Source of the DNA: Petrotoga sp. 9PWA.NaAc.5.4
GTDB taxonomy: Bacteria > Thermotogota > Thermotogae > Petrotogales > Petrotogaceae
Direction: 5' to 3'
Assembly: GCF_002895485.1 (NCBI RefSeq)
Contig: NZ_AZRK01000044.1
Span: 1-64,000, forward strand
DNA length: 64,000 bases
Part shown: piece after piece, positions 46,469-63,995 of the stretch
Layout of the letters: every line of letters begins with the position of its first letter
Position numbering within the stretch: the stretch's first letter is position 1
Notes under the pieces: model-generated
What the model was told of the DNA's origin: nothing
The model's input: only the letters and a program-made list of their open reading frames with translations
Databases searched by the model: none
Made by a program: the position numbers and the translations under genes

Positions 46469-46963
46469 TTATTTAAAATTTAAAATATTATTTAACAAAT
46501 ATTTTATTTCCAACTTTAATCTTTCCAATAGATACCCATAAAAGTTACAAAACAAAATATAAATAAAAATTATAATAGTCAATATACTTTTATTTTCTAT
46601 AAAATCTGGTAACAAATCTCCAAAAAAATAATACATCACAAAAAAAGAGCTAAAAGAAAAGATTGAAATAAAAAGATGTTTTAAAAAATTATTTTTAACA
46701 AATTTAAAAACAATTATCGGAATAAAAAATAACAAAAAGATTCCAATAACTTCTACAAAAAAACCGCTCAAAAAGGTTAAAAATAAAAGAACAAATGAAA
46801 AAATTATAGACTGCCATTTATCCAAAAACAAAATACCTAAAGGCATTAATAAACTAACCACTGTTGGAGCAATTCTTAGATATCTTGATATAATAAATAA
46901 TAGATAAAAAAAAATAACCAAAAATGCGATTTTTATTAAAGGATTTTTTAAGTTAACATTCAT
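46469..46963 (-). CDS. Small polytopic membrane protein of unknown function
   Basis: This 164-residue protein has about five hydrophobic helices spread over its length and very few charged residues apart from a basic C-terminal end. No motif is recognised. Its ATG lies three bases after the stop of the Cys-rich peptide gene, so it is probably translated from the same mRNA. A role in export or membrane assembly of a neighbour's product is possible but is only context. Confidence 0.6.
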   Translation of the reverse strand: MNVNLKNPLIKIAFLVIFFYLLFIISRYLRIAPTVVSLLMPLGILFLDKWQSIIFSFVLLFLTFLSGFFVEVIGIFLLFFIPIIVFKFVKNNFLKHLFISIFSFSSFFVMYYFFGDLLPDFIENKSILTIIIFIYILFCNFYGYLLERLKLEIKYLLNNILNFK

Positions 46964-46966
46964 AAT

Positions 46967-47197
46967 TTAAAACCAATGACAAAGATCTCCTCCACCACAT
47001 TCACACAAGGTATCCAAACAAACAGTAGCTCCCAAACACTTCAAACATTCACCACATCCGGATCCTCCGTATCTGTAGTATCCAGCTCTAAAGGTATCGA
47101 TATCTTTTTTTAAATTTTCGTCGTTTTTATATTTTAAAAATAGGTTTTTGAAATCCCCATTTTTTATATAACTTTGTAACATTATTTGGTTTGCCAT
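46967..47197 (-). CDS. Cys-rich small protein coupled to DUF5685
   Basis: The 76-residue protein has a helical, charged N-terminal part (ANQIMLQSYIKNGDFKNLF) and a C-terminal tail with seven cysteines: GCGECLKC, VCLDTLCEC and GGGDLCHWF. The start is ATG 47197, eight bases after GGAGG; the upstream ATG at 47212 holds the SD itself. Its 5' part overlaps the DUF5685 gene by 71 bp in another frame. The tail could bind metal or an iron-sulfur cluster, form disulfides, or be a modified peptide core. No function is known to me. Confidence 0.7.
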   Translation of the reverse strand: MANQIMLQSYIKNGDFKNLFLKYKNDENLKKDIDTFRAGYYRYGGSGCGECLKCLGATVCLDTLCECGGGDLCHWF

Positions 47198-48017
47198 GTT
47201 TCTTTCCTCCATATAAAATATTAGTTATTTCATTTCTATGATAGATTAATGAAAAAGTAGCTAATTTTTTACTGAAGTGGATATTAAATTCTGTTATATT
47301 TTGAAGGTTTTCCATAAATTCTTTTGCACAGATATCATAAGTAAAAAGTAATCTTTCTTTTTGGTCTTCTGTCAAAAATTTTATTTCACTTATTCCAAAA
47401 GAACTATTTAATGCATTAAATTTATGTCTTTTTATATCTTTTTTAAAGTCGTATATACTATCTAATAAATAAACTAAGTTCGCTGTTACTATAGGCATTG
47501 TTTCGGGATATCCATCGGCAAAAAAATTTTTAAAAATTAAATTCATTACTTCTTGTGATGGTTTAGCGTACTCATCTAAGTCTAACTTTTGCTTTTCTAT
47601 TTCGTCTTGTCTTTTCAATAACCTCTCATATTCTGTTAAAAATTTTTCATCAAAAAAAGTAATTAATAAATTTTTGACTTTATTAACAATCTTCAAAGGA
47701 ATAGAAATACCTTCTAATTTATAATCTAAGAGTTTTCCATAAATTATTAACAAATTTAGGTAAGAATAGGGTTCTAAAAATGTTATATCAACAGGTTTGT
47801 ATCTTTCCTTAAAAAAGGTGTACGGACACCTAAATGTGTTAAATTTTTGCATAGGGTTTTTTATCATAGAAAAAAATACGACTTCTCTTATTATTATTGG
47901 CCTATAAGCTTCTCCGAATTTTTGTTTTAGAATATGGCATAATCCGCAGTAATAATAAAGATAACTCTCTATTTCTTTTTTAGTCGGTTGAAAGTAAATT
48001 GATATATATCCAAACAC
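47127..48017 (-). CDS. DUF5685 family protein
   Basis: This 296-residue, mostly helical protein begins MFGYISIYFQPTKKEIESY and has YYCGLCHILKQKFG near residue 22, the defining start of the DUF5685 family. A third and fourth cysteine lie near residues 64 and 226 (FRCPY and YDICAKEF). There are no membrane helices or signal. The middle LVYLLDSIYDFKKDIKRHKFNALN has the look of a metal- or diphosphate-handling helical bundle, but that is only a visual impression. A truncated dispersed element lies upstream. The function is unknown. Confidence 0.75.
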   Translation of the reverse strand: MFGYISIYFQPTKKEIESYLYYYCGLCHILKQKFGEAYRPIIIREVVFFSMIKNPMQKFNTFRCPYTFFKERYKPVDITFLEPYSYLNLLIIYGKLLDYKLEGISIPLKIVNKVKNLLITFFDEKFLTEYERLLKRQDEIEKQKLDLDEYAKPSQEVMNLIFKNFFADGYPETMPIVTANLVYLLDSIYDFKKDIKRHKFNALNSSFGISEIKFLTEDQKERLLFTYDICAKEFMENLQNITEFNIHFSKKLATFSLIYHRNEITNILYGGKKHGKPNNVTKLYKKWGFQKPIFKI

Positions 48018-48148: not shown

Positions 48149-49360
48149 TTAATAAACTTGAATCTTTTTACTTTGAGAAAAAATTTTGTTTCCTATTTTA
48201 ACAGAGAATTGTGCTTCATAATTACCTGCGATGTCTAACACAATATTTCTAATATCATTTATATTAAAAATTTTCGTTGTTCCTAATTCTGAAAGATAAA
48301 CTCGAAAGTTGTCTGTGTTTTCATAATTAAAAATCAAGTTATTTTCAAAAAAGAGTTTGAAATTCATGCTTGAAATTAAAATTCCACGAGGTGTTCTTTT
48401 GTCATTTTTCAAATGGGCTTCAAAATATAAAGGTCCACCTCTATCTGAACTTGAAATAGAATAAACTATTAAAGATAAATTCTCACCACTTTCGTCAATT
48501 CTTTCAAATACAGGAAGTGTTAATAAATAATTCTTGTCTAAAGAATCAAATTCAAATAAAATTGAATAAATATTAGGAGAAAATAGGCTGTTAATGGTTA
48601 TAGTGTATGCGAAAGATTCTAAAGAATTTAAACTTAAAGTACCGAATGAAAATTCTGAAGTAAAAACTTCATCATTTCTTGTTTTCACTGTATAGCTACC
48701 GTTTAGTTCTTTAGAGATAAGACTATCTGTTCGATTAGAAACTAATATATCAAAAACGGGAAATTCATTGCTTAAGAAAAACATTTCTTTAGGATAAATG
48801 TTTAAAACTAAGTCTTGATTATATTTAAAGCTTTTTCTAAGATTTATATTTTCATTATTTAAAATAAAAGAGCTTCTTATTTCATAATTTCCATTTTTTA
48901 ATCCTTTTAACTCTTTTTCTCTTAATAAATCGAAAACCAGTATCGTTTGATAAGATTGAACCACGGTGTTTATGCTTTCAGTAAAAACAAAACTATAAAC
49001 TATTTCCGAAGTATCCGTATTTAAAATTAAAAATGAAAAGTTTTCTAATGTAATATTAGCAGAAGTATTGTTTGTATTTTGCATGGTTATTTTGACATCA
49101 ACAATATCTGGATAATGATATTCTTCTTCTGCTTGTAAATTTAGGTTAATTCCTTTAATAACAACATTATAAGGTAGATCAAATCTTGAAAATCTTGGCC
49201 CAAAAAAAATAAAAAACAAAGTCGCTATAGACAACAAAATAATAATATAAGAAGTCCATTTGGTTATCTTCTTTCTGGTTCCATATTTTTTTTCTTTTGT
49301 TTTTCTTTTTTTTTCGTCATATTCTTCCCATTCCTTGGGGCTTTTAGAAAAATACTGCAT
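48149..49360 (-). CDS. Membrane-anchored beta-rich extracellular protein
   Basis: I do not recognise this 403-residue protein. A very basic N-terminal segment is followed by one membrane helix (about residues 36-55), then about 340 residues outside the membrane, rich in beta strands and N-T-S content. They look like two or three Ig-like or CARDB-like domains, for example VDVKITMQNTNNTSANITLE. The start is ATG 49360 behind GGAGAG; the longer frame to 49411 overlaps the ATPase gene. Its coupling to a secretion-type ATPase suggests a cell-surface or pilus-related role. Confidence 0.65.
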   Translation of the reverse strand: MQYFSKSPKEWEEYDEKKRKTKEKKYGTRKKITKWTSYIIILLSIATLFFIFFGPRFSRFDLPYNVVIKGINLNLQAEEEYHYPDIVDVKITMQNTNNTSANITLENFSFLILNTDTSEIVYSFVFTESINTVVQSYQTILVFDLLREKELKGLKNGNYEIRSSFILNNENINLRKSFKYNQDLVLNIYPKEMFFLSNEFPVFDILVSNRTDSLISKELNGSYTVKTRNDEVFTSEFSFGTLSLNSLESFAYTITINSLFSPNIYSILFEFDSLDKNYLLTLPVFERIDESGENLSLIVYSISSSDRGGPLYFEAHLKNDKRTPRGILISSMNFKLFFENNLIFNYENTDNFRVYLSELGTTKIFNINDIRNIVLDIAGNYEAQFSVKIGNKIFSQSKKIQVY

Positions 49361-49370
49361 TTTCTCTCCT

Positions 49371-50477
49371 TTATTCAAAAGAAGAAAGATTTCCAAGATA
49401 TTCTTCTTCATTTATTATCTTACTATTAAGAGCTTCTAAAAGCTTAAGGTTAGGATCAATATAAAATTCCGAAAACTTGTACTTTTCTTTGATATAGTTG
49501 ACACTTTTATTTTGTGCTATATCTTTTTTTAAGTTTTCTGATACGATTAATCCTTCAAATACTGTAATAAAACCATCTTTACCTGTATAGAAACAGTTAT
49601 CACATCCTGCACCTTTACATAGATTACAATTTTTTGATATCAATCTTTGATTAGTTAAAAAATCAAGACTATCTGAAAGATTTTTAACATCTATATCAAA
49701 CATTTTAAGCCTTTGAAGTACTAAAAATACGTTTTTTGTATGTAAAGAAGAAAATACTAAATGACCAGTTACAGAAGATTCAAACAATAATTTTGCAAAA
49801 TTTTTTTCTCTAACTTCTCCTACTACTATTAATTCAGGATCCTGTCTCAATATATATTTCAATATGTCTAATCTTTCATTTTCATCGTGACAAACAATTT
49901 GTATTATTTCTGGATTTATATACTCTATCGGATCTTCTATACTATGGACTTTTCTTTGACCTTTAAATTTGTTTACAATGTAATGCATAGTTGTTGTTTT
50001 TCCAGAACCAGTAGGGCCAGAAAAAATGAGTACTTTTGACTTCTCTTTCATTAAATCAACTGTTTTTTTCTCTATTTCAGAACCCAATTCAACTTCTATC
50101 TCTGATATATTTCGAAGTTTTCTTAAAACGCAACTTATACCTCTTGCGGATTTAACAAAAGAGACACGAAAATTTTCCCTTTTATAAGTAAAAGAGCCGT
50201 CTATATTTTCAAAATCTTTTATTATATCAAAGCCACAATTAATAAGTAATTTGTTGAGTAAGATTTCGTATTCATAAAAATCAATAGGATTCAAATTTAT
50301 TAAACTACCACAATATCTTATTTTTACCAATACATTATCTTCAAGAGGTTCAAAATGAAAATCTGTTATATTTTTATTATTATACTTTTCAAAAAATTTA
50401 CTTAAAATATCCTCTTCAACTAAAAATTCATTATTTTTTTTGTATAGATCGTACAAATTAAACTTTTTATTACTCAT
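49371..50477 (-). CDS. GspE/PilB-like secretion ATPase
   Basis: This 368-residue P-loop ATPase matches the type II secretion / type IV pilus assembly ATPases, in a short form like ComGA. It has an N-terminal domain with DFHFEPLEDNVLVKIRY (family DIHIEP), Walker A GPTGSGKT (154-161), the Asp box SIEDPIEY, Walker B RQDPELIVVGEVR, His box GHLVFSSLHT and a zinc tetracysteine C284-x2-C287-x4-C292-x2-C295. It lies eight bases after ftsZ, an arrangement also seen in Thermotoga. Partners are not in the window. Confidence 0.88.
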   Translation of the reverse strand: MSNKKFNLYDLYKKNNEFLVEEDILSKFFEKYNNKNITDFHFEPLEDNVLVKIRYCGSLINLNPIDFYEYEILLNKLLINCGFDIIKDFENIDGSFTYKRENFRVSFVKSARGISCVLRKLRNISEIEVELGSEIEKKTVDLMKEKSKVLIFSGPTGSGKTTTMHYIVNKFKGQRKVHSIEDPIEYINPEIIQIVCHDENERLDILKYILRQDPELIVVGEVREKNFAKLLFESSVTGHLVFSSLHTKNVFLVLQRLKMFDIDVKNLSDSLDFLTNQRLISKNCNLCKGAGCDNCFYTGKDGFITVFEGLIVSENLKKDIAQNKSVNYIKEKYKFSEFYIDPNLKLLEALNSKIINEEEYLGNLSSFE

Positions 50478-63125: not shown

Positions 63126-63995
63126 ATGGATTTGTTAGAGTTAGGAGAGTTTAAGCGCGTTTTTGATAAATATTTAGAAAATTTTTTTGATCAAGCTACA
63201 TTAGAATCCAATATCAAAGAAGTTTTAGGATACGCTGTAATAAACGGTGGAAAAAGATTACGACCATGGTTAATTTATGTGTTGGGCCAACTATTAGGTA
63301 ATAATGATCATGAAACCCTTATAAATTTAGGAATGGCGGTAGAAATACTTCATACAGCTTCTCTAATTCATGATGATTTACCAGCTTTAGATAATGCTAC
63401 TTTAAGAAGAGGTTCACTAACAAGTCATTTAAAATTTGGTGAATTTAAAGCCGTTGTTAGTGGAGATTATGGGTTTGTATTACCGTTGAAAATTATAAAT
63501 AATTTAAAATATATAGATGTAAATAATAAAACTTTATTATCAGAATATTTTATAGAAGATACCTTAAAATTATTTGAAGGAGAAATGCTTGATTTAGTTT
63601 TTGAAAAAGAAGAGTTGCACGTTAATGAAAAAGATATTATAGATATGTATTCAAAAAAAACCGGAGCTTTATTTGGGCTGTGTTTTTCTATACCTTTTAT
63701 TCTTAAAAAAAATACCTTTAATATTGAAGAGATACATAACACAGGAATATATTTTGGTATAGCTTTTCAAATATATGATGATTTAAAAGATTTATCAAAA
63801 AATTCTGAAGAATTAGGAAAAGACGTTCAAAAAGATAATTACAAAAAAACCTTGCTTAATATATATTCTCTTCAAGAAACTAAAAAAATGGCCGATAATT
63901 ATTATGAAAGTACTCTAAACTATTTTAGAAAGATTAATTTAAATAAGATGGTAGAGCTTTTATTAAACATCAGAAATCTTATAGAAAGTAGGTAA
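63126..63995 (+). CDS. Polyprenyl (farnesyl/geranylgeranyl) diphosphate synthase
   Basis: This 289-residue trans-prenyltransferase joins isopentenyl units to allylic diphosphates. GGKRLRPWL, the first aspartate-rich motif D83-D-L-P-A-L-D89 and YDDLKDLSKN are present; the second motif is DDLKD rather than DDILD. The insertion of two residues in the first motif is typical of bacterial short-chain synthases. Product length cannot be read by eye. The start is ATG 63126 behind AGAGGTG. It is the last complete gene in the window. Confidence 0.93.
   Translation: MDLLELGEFKRVFDKYLENFFDQATLESNIKEVLGYAVINGGKRLRPWLIYVLGQLLGNNDHETLINLGMAVEILHTASLIHDDLPALDNATLRRGSLTSHLKFGEFKAVVSGDYGFVLPLKIINNLKYIDVNNKTLLSEYFIEDTLKLFEGEMLDLVFEKEELHVNEKDIIDMYSKKTGALFGLCFSIPFILKKNTFNIEEIHNTGIYFGIAFQIYDDLKDLSKNSEELGKDVQKDNYKKTLLNIYSLQETKKMADNYYESTLNYFRKINLNKMVELLLNIRNLIESR

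Follow-up and report, generated by a model that had tools for sequence, protein, structure and literature searches.

A conserved DUF5685 cassette in Petrotoga as a candidate system for cysteine prenylation of C-terminal protein tails in bacteria

ComQ, a member of the isoprenoid-synthase fold superfamily, prenylates the peptide ComX, the product of the next gene (PMC5331326). Such trans-IDS-like peptide prenyltransferases need an Asp-rich motif, and they act near the C-terminus of a small protein whose gene comes next to their own (PMC5331326, PMC13290415). Among known systems, these enzymes (ComQ-ComX of Bacillus, ChrPC and PalQ) are the closest in kind to the gene cassette described here, which is built around a protein of the Pfam family DUF5685 that is predicted to belong to the same fold superfamily. 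In the open-licence papers that we searched, DUF5685 receives a single passing mention, and no case of bacterial cysteine prenylation was found. Our best explanation of the cassette as a whole is that DUF5685 prenylates the tail cysteines of its partner and so tethers the tailed protein to the membrane; we consider the case for this reading to be evenly balanced.

The window analyzed here, the whole stretch of 64,000 nucleotides, comes from Petrotoga sp. 9PWA.NaAc.5.4, and its cassette consists of three genes (Table 1). An earlier note on this DNA had placed them correctly: the coordinates of the open reading frames agree, the DUF5685 gene and the gene for a 76-residue Cys protein overlap by 71 bp, and the membrane ORF follows after 3 bp (46964-46966). 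Also as claimed there, the small protein has seven cysteines and ends in GGGDLCHWF; all seven lie within its last 29 residues. The DUF5685 gene has a GTG start and encodes 296 aa, and the score of its product against the PF18937 profile (84 bits; gathering score 26.7) places it in this Pfam family. Two starts are possible for the Cys protein, the first ATG giving 81 aa (46967-47212, minus strand) and the second 76 aa and the 71 bp overlap. The second is most likely the true start, since it is preceded by a Shine-Dalgarno sequence (AUGGAGGAAAGAAACAUG) and the 76-aa start also occurs in L009. Neither the small Cys protein nor the membrane protein matches a family in Pfam or NCBIfam. Directly upstream of DUF5685 is a gene for a 420-aa protein (48149-49411, minus strand) with one apparent N-terminal membrane helix and no confident Pfam match, which is a possible fourth cassette partner in the window's family. 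A homologue of this protein adjoins DUF5685 even in a genus (g7; five loci: L030, L031, L034, L042 and L043) whose small and membrane genes lie elsewhere.

Table 1 Features of the DUF5685 cassette and a polyprenyl-diphosphate synthase gene in the window
Feature	Position	Strand	Evidence
DUF5685 protein, predicted class I isoprenoid-synthase-fold enzyme, proposed prenyltransferase	47127..48017	-	PF18937, E 1.6e-23
76-aa protein, short helical head and C-terminal Cys tail, proposed acceptor	46967..47197	-	ORF, Shine-Dalgarno and relatives
Cys tail module, 32 aa, motif DxxCExxGGD, seven Cys	46970..47065	-	Ungapped alignment with tails of Clostridia and Thermotogota J proteins
Six-helix membrane protein, predicted ECF-transporter S-component fold	46469..46963	-	AlphaFold model and VIA rows
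Polyprenyl-diphosphate synthase (PF00348), sole one found in the genome, outside the cassette	63210..63905	+	E 8e-50

The small gene occurs in the window genome and in 18 others of its family, spanning 8 genera at 41-70% identity, and DUF5685 is present in the same 19 genomes. The membrane gene was found in 20 of the 21 family genomes, the additional one being a genome (G011) in which the tail and the membrane gene lie at a contig end, so that the apparent absence there is an assembly effect. Another, nearly complete genome is without all three cassette genes. The small and membrane genes of genus g7 adjoin each other, with DUF5685 distant from them (at 1977465 and 2209496 in one genome), and yet both the small gene and DUF5685 are retained, so that their link is functional and not merely positional. 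We rejected an apparent decay of both genes in one further genome as evidence, since its small gene differs by a single -1 indel that may be an assembly error. The small gene is not a chance ORF: it is kept in 8 genera, and DUF5685 has the Cys tail as a neighbor or as part of itself in Thermotogota, Bacillota and Actinobacteria.

In related families, DUF5685 adjoins a J-domain protein, mostly with TPR and ~200 aa long, whose C-terminus is the same Cys tail. The HPD of the J domain is found in 87 of 92 tailed relatives, and a Pfam search found no J domain in the window protein. The form found throughout the window's family retains only a short helical head and the tail, and a class-level relative (L020) is intermediate, with 133 aa, no Pfam J-domain match and the tail CCECMGGDCISCM. 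From these sequences, we take the window protein to be a short form of the Cys-tailed J-domain protein. From a scan of GTDB genomes for DUF5685, 80 Clostridia loci were kept, and the gene for the Cys-tailed J protein comes next after DUF5685 in all but about two of them (one locus truncated, one unclear). The tail gene also adjoins DUF5685 in other Thermotogota. In many Clostridia loci, a gene for a hydrophobic protein of ~170 aa then follows. The first two genes stand in the same order in Pusillibacter, where they are annotated, and all three do so in Subdoligranulum, where they are not, while T. maritima also has DUF5685. Four Actinobacteria (two Nocardia, Tsukamurella and Nonomuraea) have DUF5685 proteins that themselves carry a fused Cys-rich tail. 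The cassette is no isolated oddity, with DUF5685 present in 70 of 118 Clostridia-class genomes.

Two records from these scans deserve separate mention. In Pusillibacter faecalis, the 504-kb element pMM59_01, which also bears rpoZ, gmk and priA, has ispD-ispF and cdaA-cdaR and, downstream of these, DUF5685 and the J-tail gene. A phage origin was considered for DUF5685 matches and rejected for the one record read (MT835652, a gut record labeled 'Bacteriophage sp.'), which looks chromosomal because it carries aminotransferase-like and folC-like genes together with the usual DUF5685-J-tail pair. A scan of viral_contigs for relatives found none.

The tail itself is conserved. Twenty-five tails from Clostridia and Thermotogota, that of the window included, align over 32 columns with no gaps, with D, C, E, G and D invariant (consensus CxxCxxLxCADCCCECMGGDLIxCC; window tail CLKCLGATVCLDTLCECGGGDLCHWF). 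Among the 118 Clostridia-class genomes, 44 have a canonical tail and every one of these has DUF5685 (44/44, p 2e-14, shared ancestry uncorrected), whereas the tail is absent from all 48 genomes lacking DUF5685. Of the 44 pairs, 41 lie within 1.5 kb and 3 are unlinked. When the tail profile was run on 61 related genomes, it found one tail per genome beyond marginal matches, in genomes with DUF5685 (the contig-end case above being an assembly exception), and a single tail protein per genome is the rule in nearly all cases in both sets. Three genomes of one family (f2) have DUF5685 and no match to the profile; the tails of the two that were read are reduced. Two f2 genomes with DUF5685 (L041 and L044) encode J-TPR proteins with the eroded Cys tails CATCILCDLLCNCC and CATCVLLDLLFNCC, which could be regarded as natural variants toward a minimal acceptor. 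The tail thus adjoins DUF5685 across phyla and is conserved, the opposite of what the earlier note had said would speak against its proposal.

That note had proposed a modified-peptide or metal-handling cassette of leader-core shape. The best reading is still that an enzyme modifies the Cys-rich tail, but a leader-core RiPP is too narrow a description: the tail looks like a permanent C-terminal module, not a cleaved core, because the same tail ends J-domain/TPR proteins and a Cys-rich tail ends actinobacterial DUF5685. No exporter gene was seen among the ORFs beside the cassette in the window. As for metal, the tail might bind Zn, Fe-S or Cu, with the CxxC and further Cys of DUF5685 inserting or handing over the metal and the S-component-like protein handling it at the membrane. 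The Cys-rich tail, the CxxC and C64 that are invariant in DUF5685, the invariant acidic residues of the tail and the fold of the membrane protein would all suit such a role. However, Cys number and spacing vary widely among the tails. In 110 tailed proteins, 4-11 Cys lie within the last 32 residues, often vicinal and at the extreme C-terminus. Ahead of their last 40 residues, the J proteins average 0.7 Cys. The fixed set of Cys ligands expected of a metallochaperone or metallothionein was therefore not found, and DUF5685 is predicted to have an isoprenoid-synthase fold with invariant Asp and not a metallochaperone fold. We keep metal handling as a rival that we judge unlikely; as far as the sequences can tell, the Cys pattern is easier to reconcile with lipidation of the tail than with a fixed site for metal. 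The invariant Asp, Glu and Gly of the tail, however, would not be needed by a bare lipid anchor, and count against prenylation.

The idea that DUF5685 is a prenyltransferase came from its motifs KLxDxxxDE and YLxDAxxDLxxDxxxxNYNP, which resemble those of squalene/phytoene synthases, and preceded any structure prediction. Residues C24, C27, C64, D98, Y183, D186, D190, D194 and N201 are invariant in 64/64 DUF5685 sequences. The AlphaFold model (pLDDT 91.8, pTM 0.88) predicts a class I isoprenoid-synthase fold, the best 50 rows of VIA-align all being isoprenoid-synthase-fold proteins (50/50). The best match is MoeN5 (PDB 5b01/5b02; Z 13.9, rmsd 3.4 A over 221 residues, 9% identity), followed by polyprenyl synthases, FPPS, CrtM, SQS and HpnC, and since a Z of 13-14 is attainable for helical models by helix arrangement alone, we rely on three other features: all the rows belong to one class, the Asp residues sit at helix ends, and a weak profile alignment shows a telling register. 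In the model, D98xxx[D/E] lies where helix 79-101 ends, and D186xxxD190xxxD194 is grouped around the end of helix 173-189, positions at which the Asp motifs of isoprenoid synthases are expected. The profile alignment (hhalign against squalene/phytoene synthases) has a probability of 1.1 and E 0.05, with 2 of 100 column shuffles scoring as high; it sets WIYLiDAxDDLxKD..YNP on AMQLTNILRDVGED..YLP, with motif 2 in register. Foldseek gave weak E-values for the model (best 0.45, HpnC). A profile search of PDB sequences returned designed helical proteins, prefoldin and similar and no isoprenoid synthase, Pfam gave no relevant match linking DUF5685 to isoprenoid synthases, and no PF00348 or NCBIfam match, as a ComQ or polyprenyl synthase would give, was found at E 1. 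Sequence evidence alone would not prove the kinship.

Two further rivals bear on this fold. DUF5685 could be an inactive member that binds prenyl diphosphate or lipid, with the tail Cys taking part in thiol redox or envelope-stress sensing or being S-acylated, as is known for the Cys string of eukaryotic CSP (PMC10903463). The first motif indeed has Glu as its second acidic residue in 8 of the 64 sequences, but the main Asp residues never vary in this diverse set, unlike in a pseudoenzyme, which leaves the inactive form very doubtful. Alternatively, DUF5685 might make a small isoprenoid, with the J/Cys-tail protein as its chaperone or regulator, after the manner of plant Orange, which has a DnaJ-like Cys-rich domain. 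Orange stabilises phytoene synthase (PMC5025653), and both the predicted fold of DUF5685 and the J domain of most partners would agree with this precedent. Yet the conserved part is the tail and not the J domain, which the window's family has lost, and Actinobacteria fuse a Cys tail to DUF5685; an Orange-like role thus seems quite improbable.

For the membrane protein, the five helices of the earlier note need correction: the AlphaFold model (pLDDT 94.1), built on a joint alignment of the two membrane-protein groups, has six main helices and predicts an S-component fold, as in the S-components of ECF transporters such as RibU. Its top VIA rows are TmRibU (5kc0, Z 10.4) and RibU (3p5n, Z 10.3), and the next unrelated row is at 6.2. 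The alignments of the two groups are colinear over 157 columns (hhalign E 0.0024, probability 12), so that their homology is likely rather than proven. We infer that the protein serves as a docking site or a transporter.

Class I enzymes bind a prenyl diphosphate through Mg2+ held on Asp motifs and then ionize it, and in eukaryotic protein prenyltransferases zinc activates the thiol. Given a dedicated Cys-tailed partner for a class I fold enzyme, the simplest chemistry would be thioether formation on the tail Cys. In the prenylation reading that we prefer, DUF5685 would move an isoprenyl group from a prenyl diphosphate onto cysteines in the C-terminal tail of the next gene's product, forming a multi-prenyl membrane anchor. 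The lipidated tail would keep its protein on the cytoplasmic side of the membrane, probably next to the cassette's ECF-S-like protein, and in most bacteria the tailed J-domain/TPR chaperone would recruit DnaK there. Of this reading, the order of the genes, the homology of the tails, their co-occurrence with DUF5685 and the invariant residues are observed and the two folds are predicted, while catalysis, the donor, Cys as the acceptor, anchoring and the part played by the membrane protein are inferred. The PF00348 synthase is a possible supplier of the prenyl donor; no SQS/PSY was found in the window's genome. Residues C24, C27 and C64 of DUF5685 are a possible zinc or thiol site and, speculatively, might hold a thiol-activating zinc, but the prenylation reading as such does not account for their invariance, which counts against it.

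In its general form, the proposal is that DUF5685 is a prokaryotic cysteine prenyltransferase, and that the Cys-tailed J proteins, together with their short forms, make up a dedicated set of S-prenylated proteins, a lipid-anchored chaperone system found in more than half of the sampled Clostridia, several Thermotogota families and some Actinobacteria, unrelated to eukaryotic CaaX/Rab prenylation; we put this at slightly below an even chance. To our knowledge, attachment of isoprenoid lipids to cysteine is so far known only from eukaryotes, so that, were Cys the acceptor, this would be the first such chemistry in prokaryotes that we know of. Bacteria would then own a separate route to the best-known eukaryotic lipid anchor, serving a J-domain co-chaperone, a Pfam family of unknown function would gain a function, and proteins with a C-terminal tag might be lipidated there by a new enzyme.

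The comparison with known systems shows both likeness and difference. ComQ has a FPP/GGPP-synthase-like sequence, to which DUF5685 has no detectable similarity, and prenylates Trp, whereas Cys is conserved in the partner of DUF5685, which, unlike ComX, is usually a J-domain protein. No conserved Trp acceptor was found near the partner's C-terminus, with Trp confined to some of the tails in the window's family and CSCI, CSFF or -CC elsewhere, nor did the ORFs listed near the cassette in the window include a ComP/ComA-like partner. MoeN5 prenylates an acceptor that is not itself an isoprenoid, as proposed here for DUF5685, but this acceptor is a phosphoglycolipid and not a protein tail. Ydj1/HDJ2 is a farnesylated J-domain protein with a CaaX C-terminus. 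The eukaryotic cysteine string protein (CSP, DNAJC5) is likewise a J-domain protein, with a lipidated Cys-rich region (PMC10903463). These two use a eukaryotic farnesyltransferase or palmitoyl transferases, and the window protein differs in having no J domain; nonetheless, in joining a J domain to a lipidated Cys-rich or CaaX C-terminus they resemble, in layout, the tailed J proteins proposed here, which may likewise bring DnaK to the membrane.
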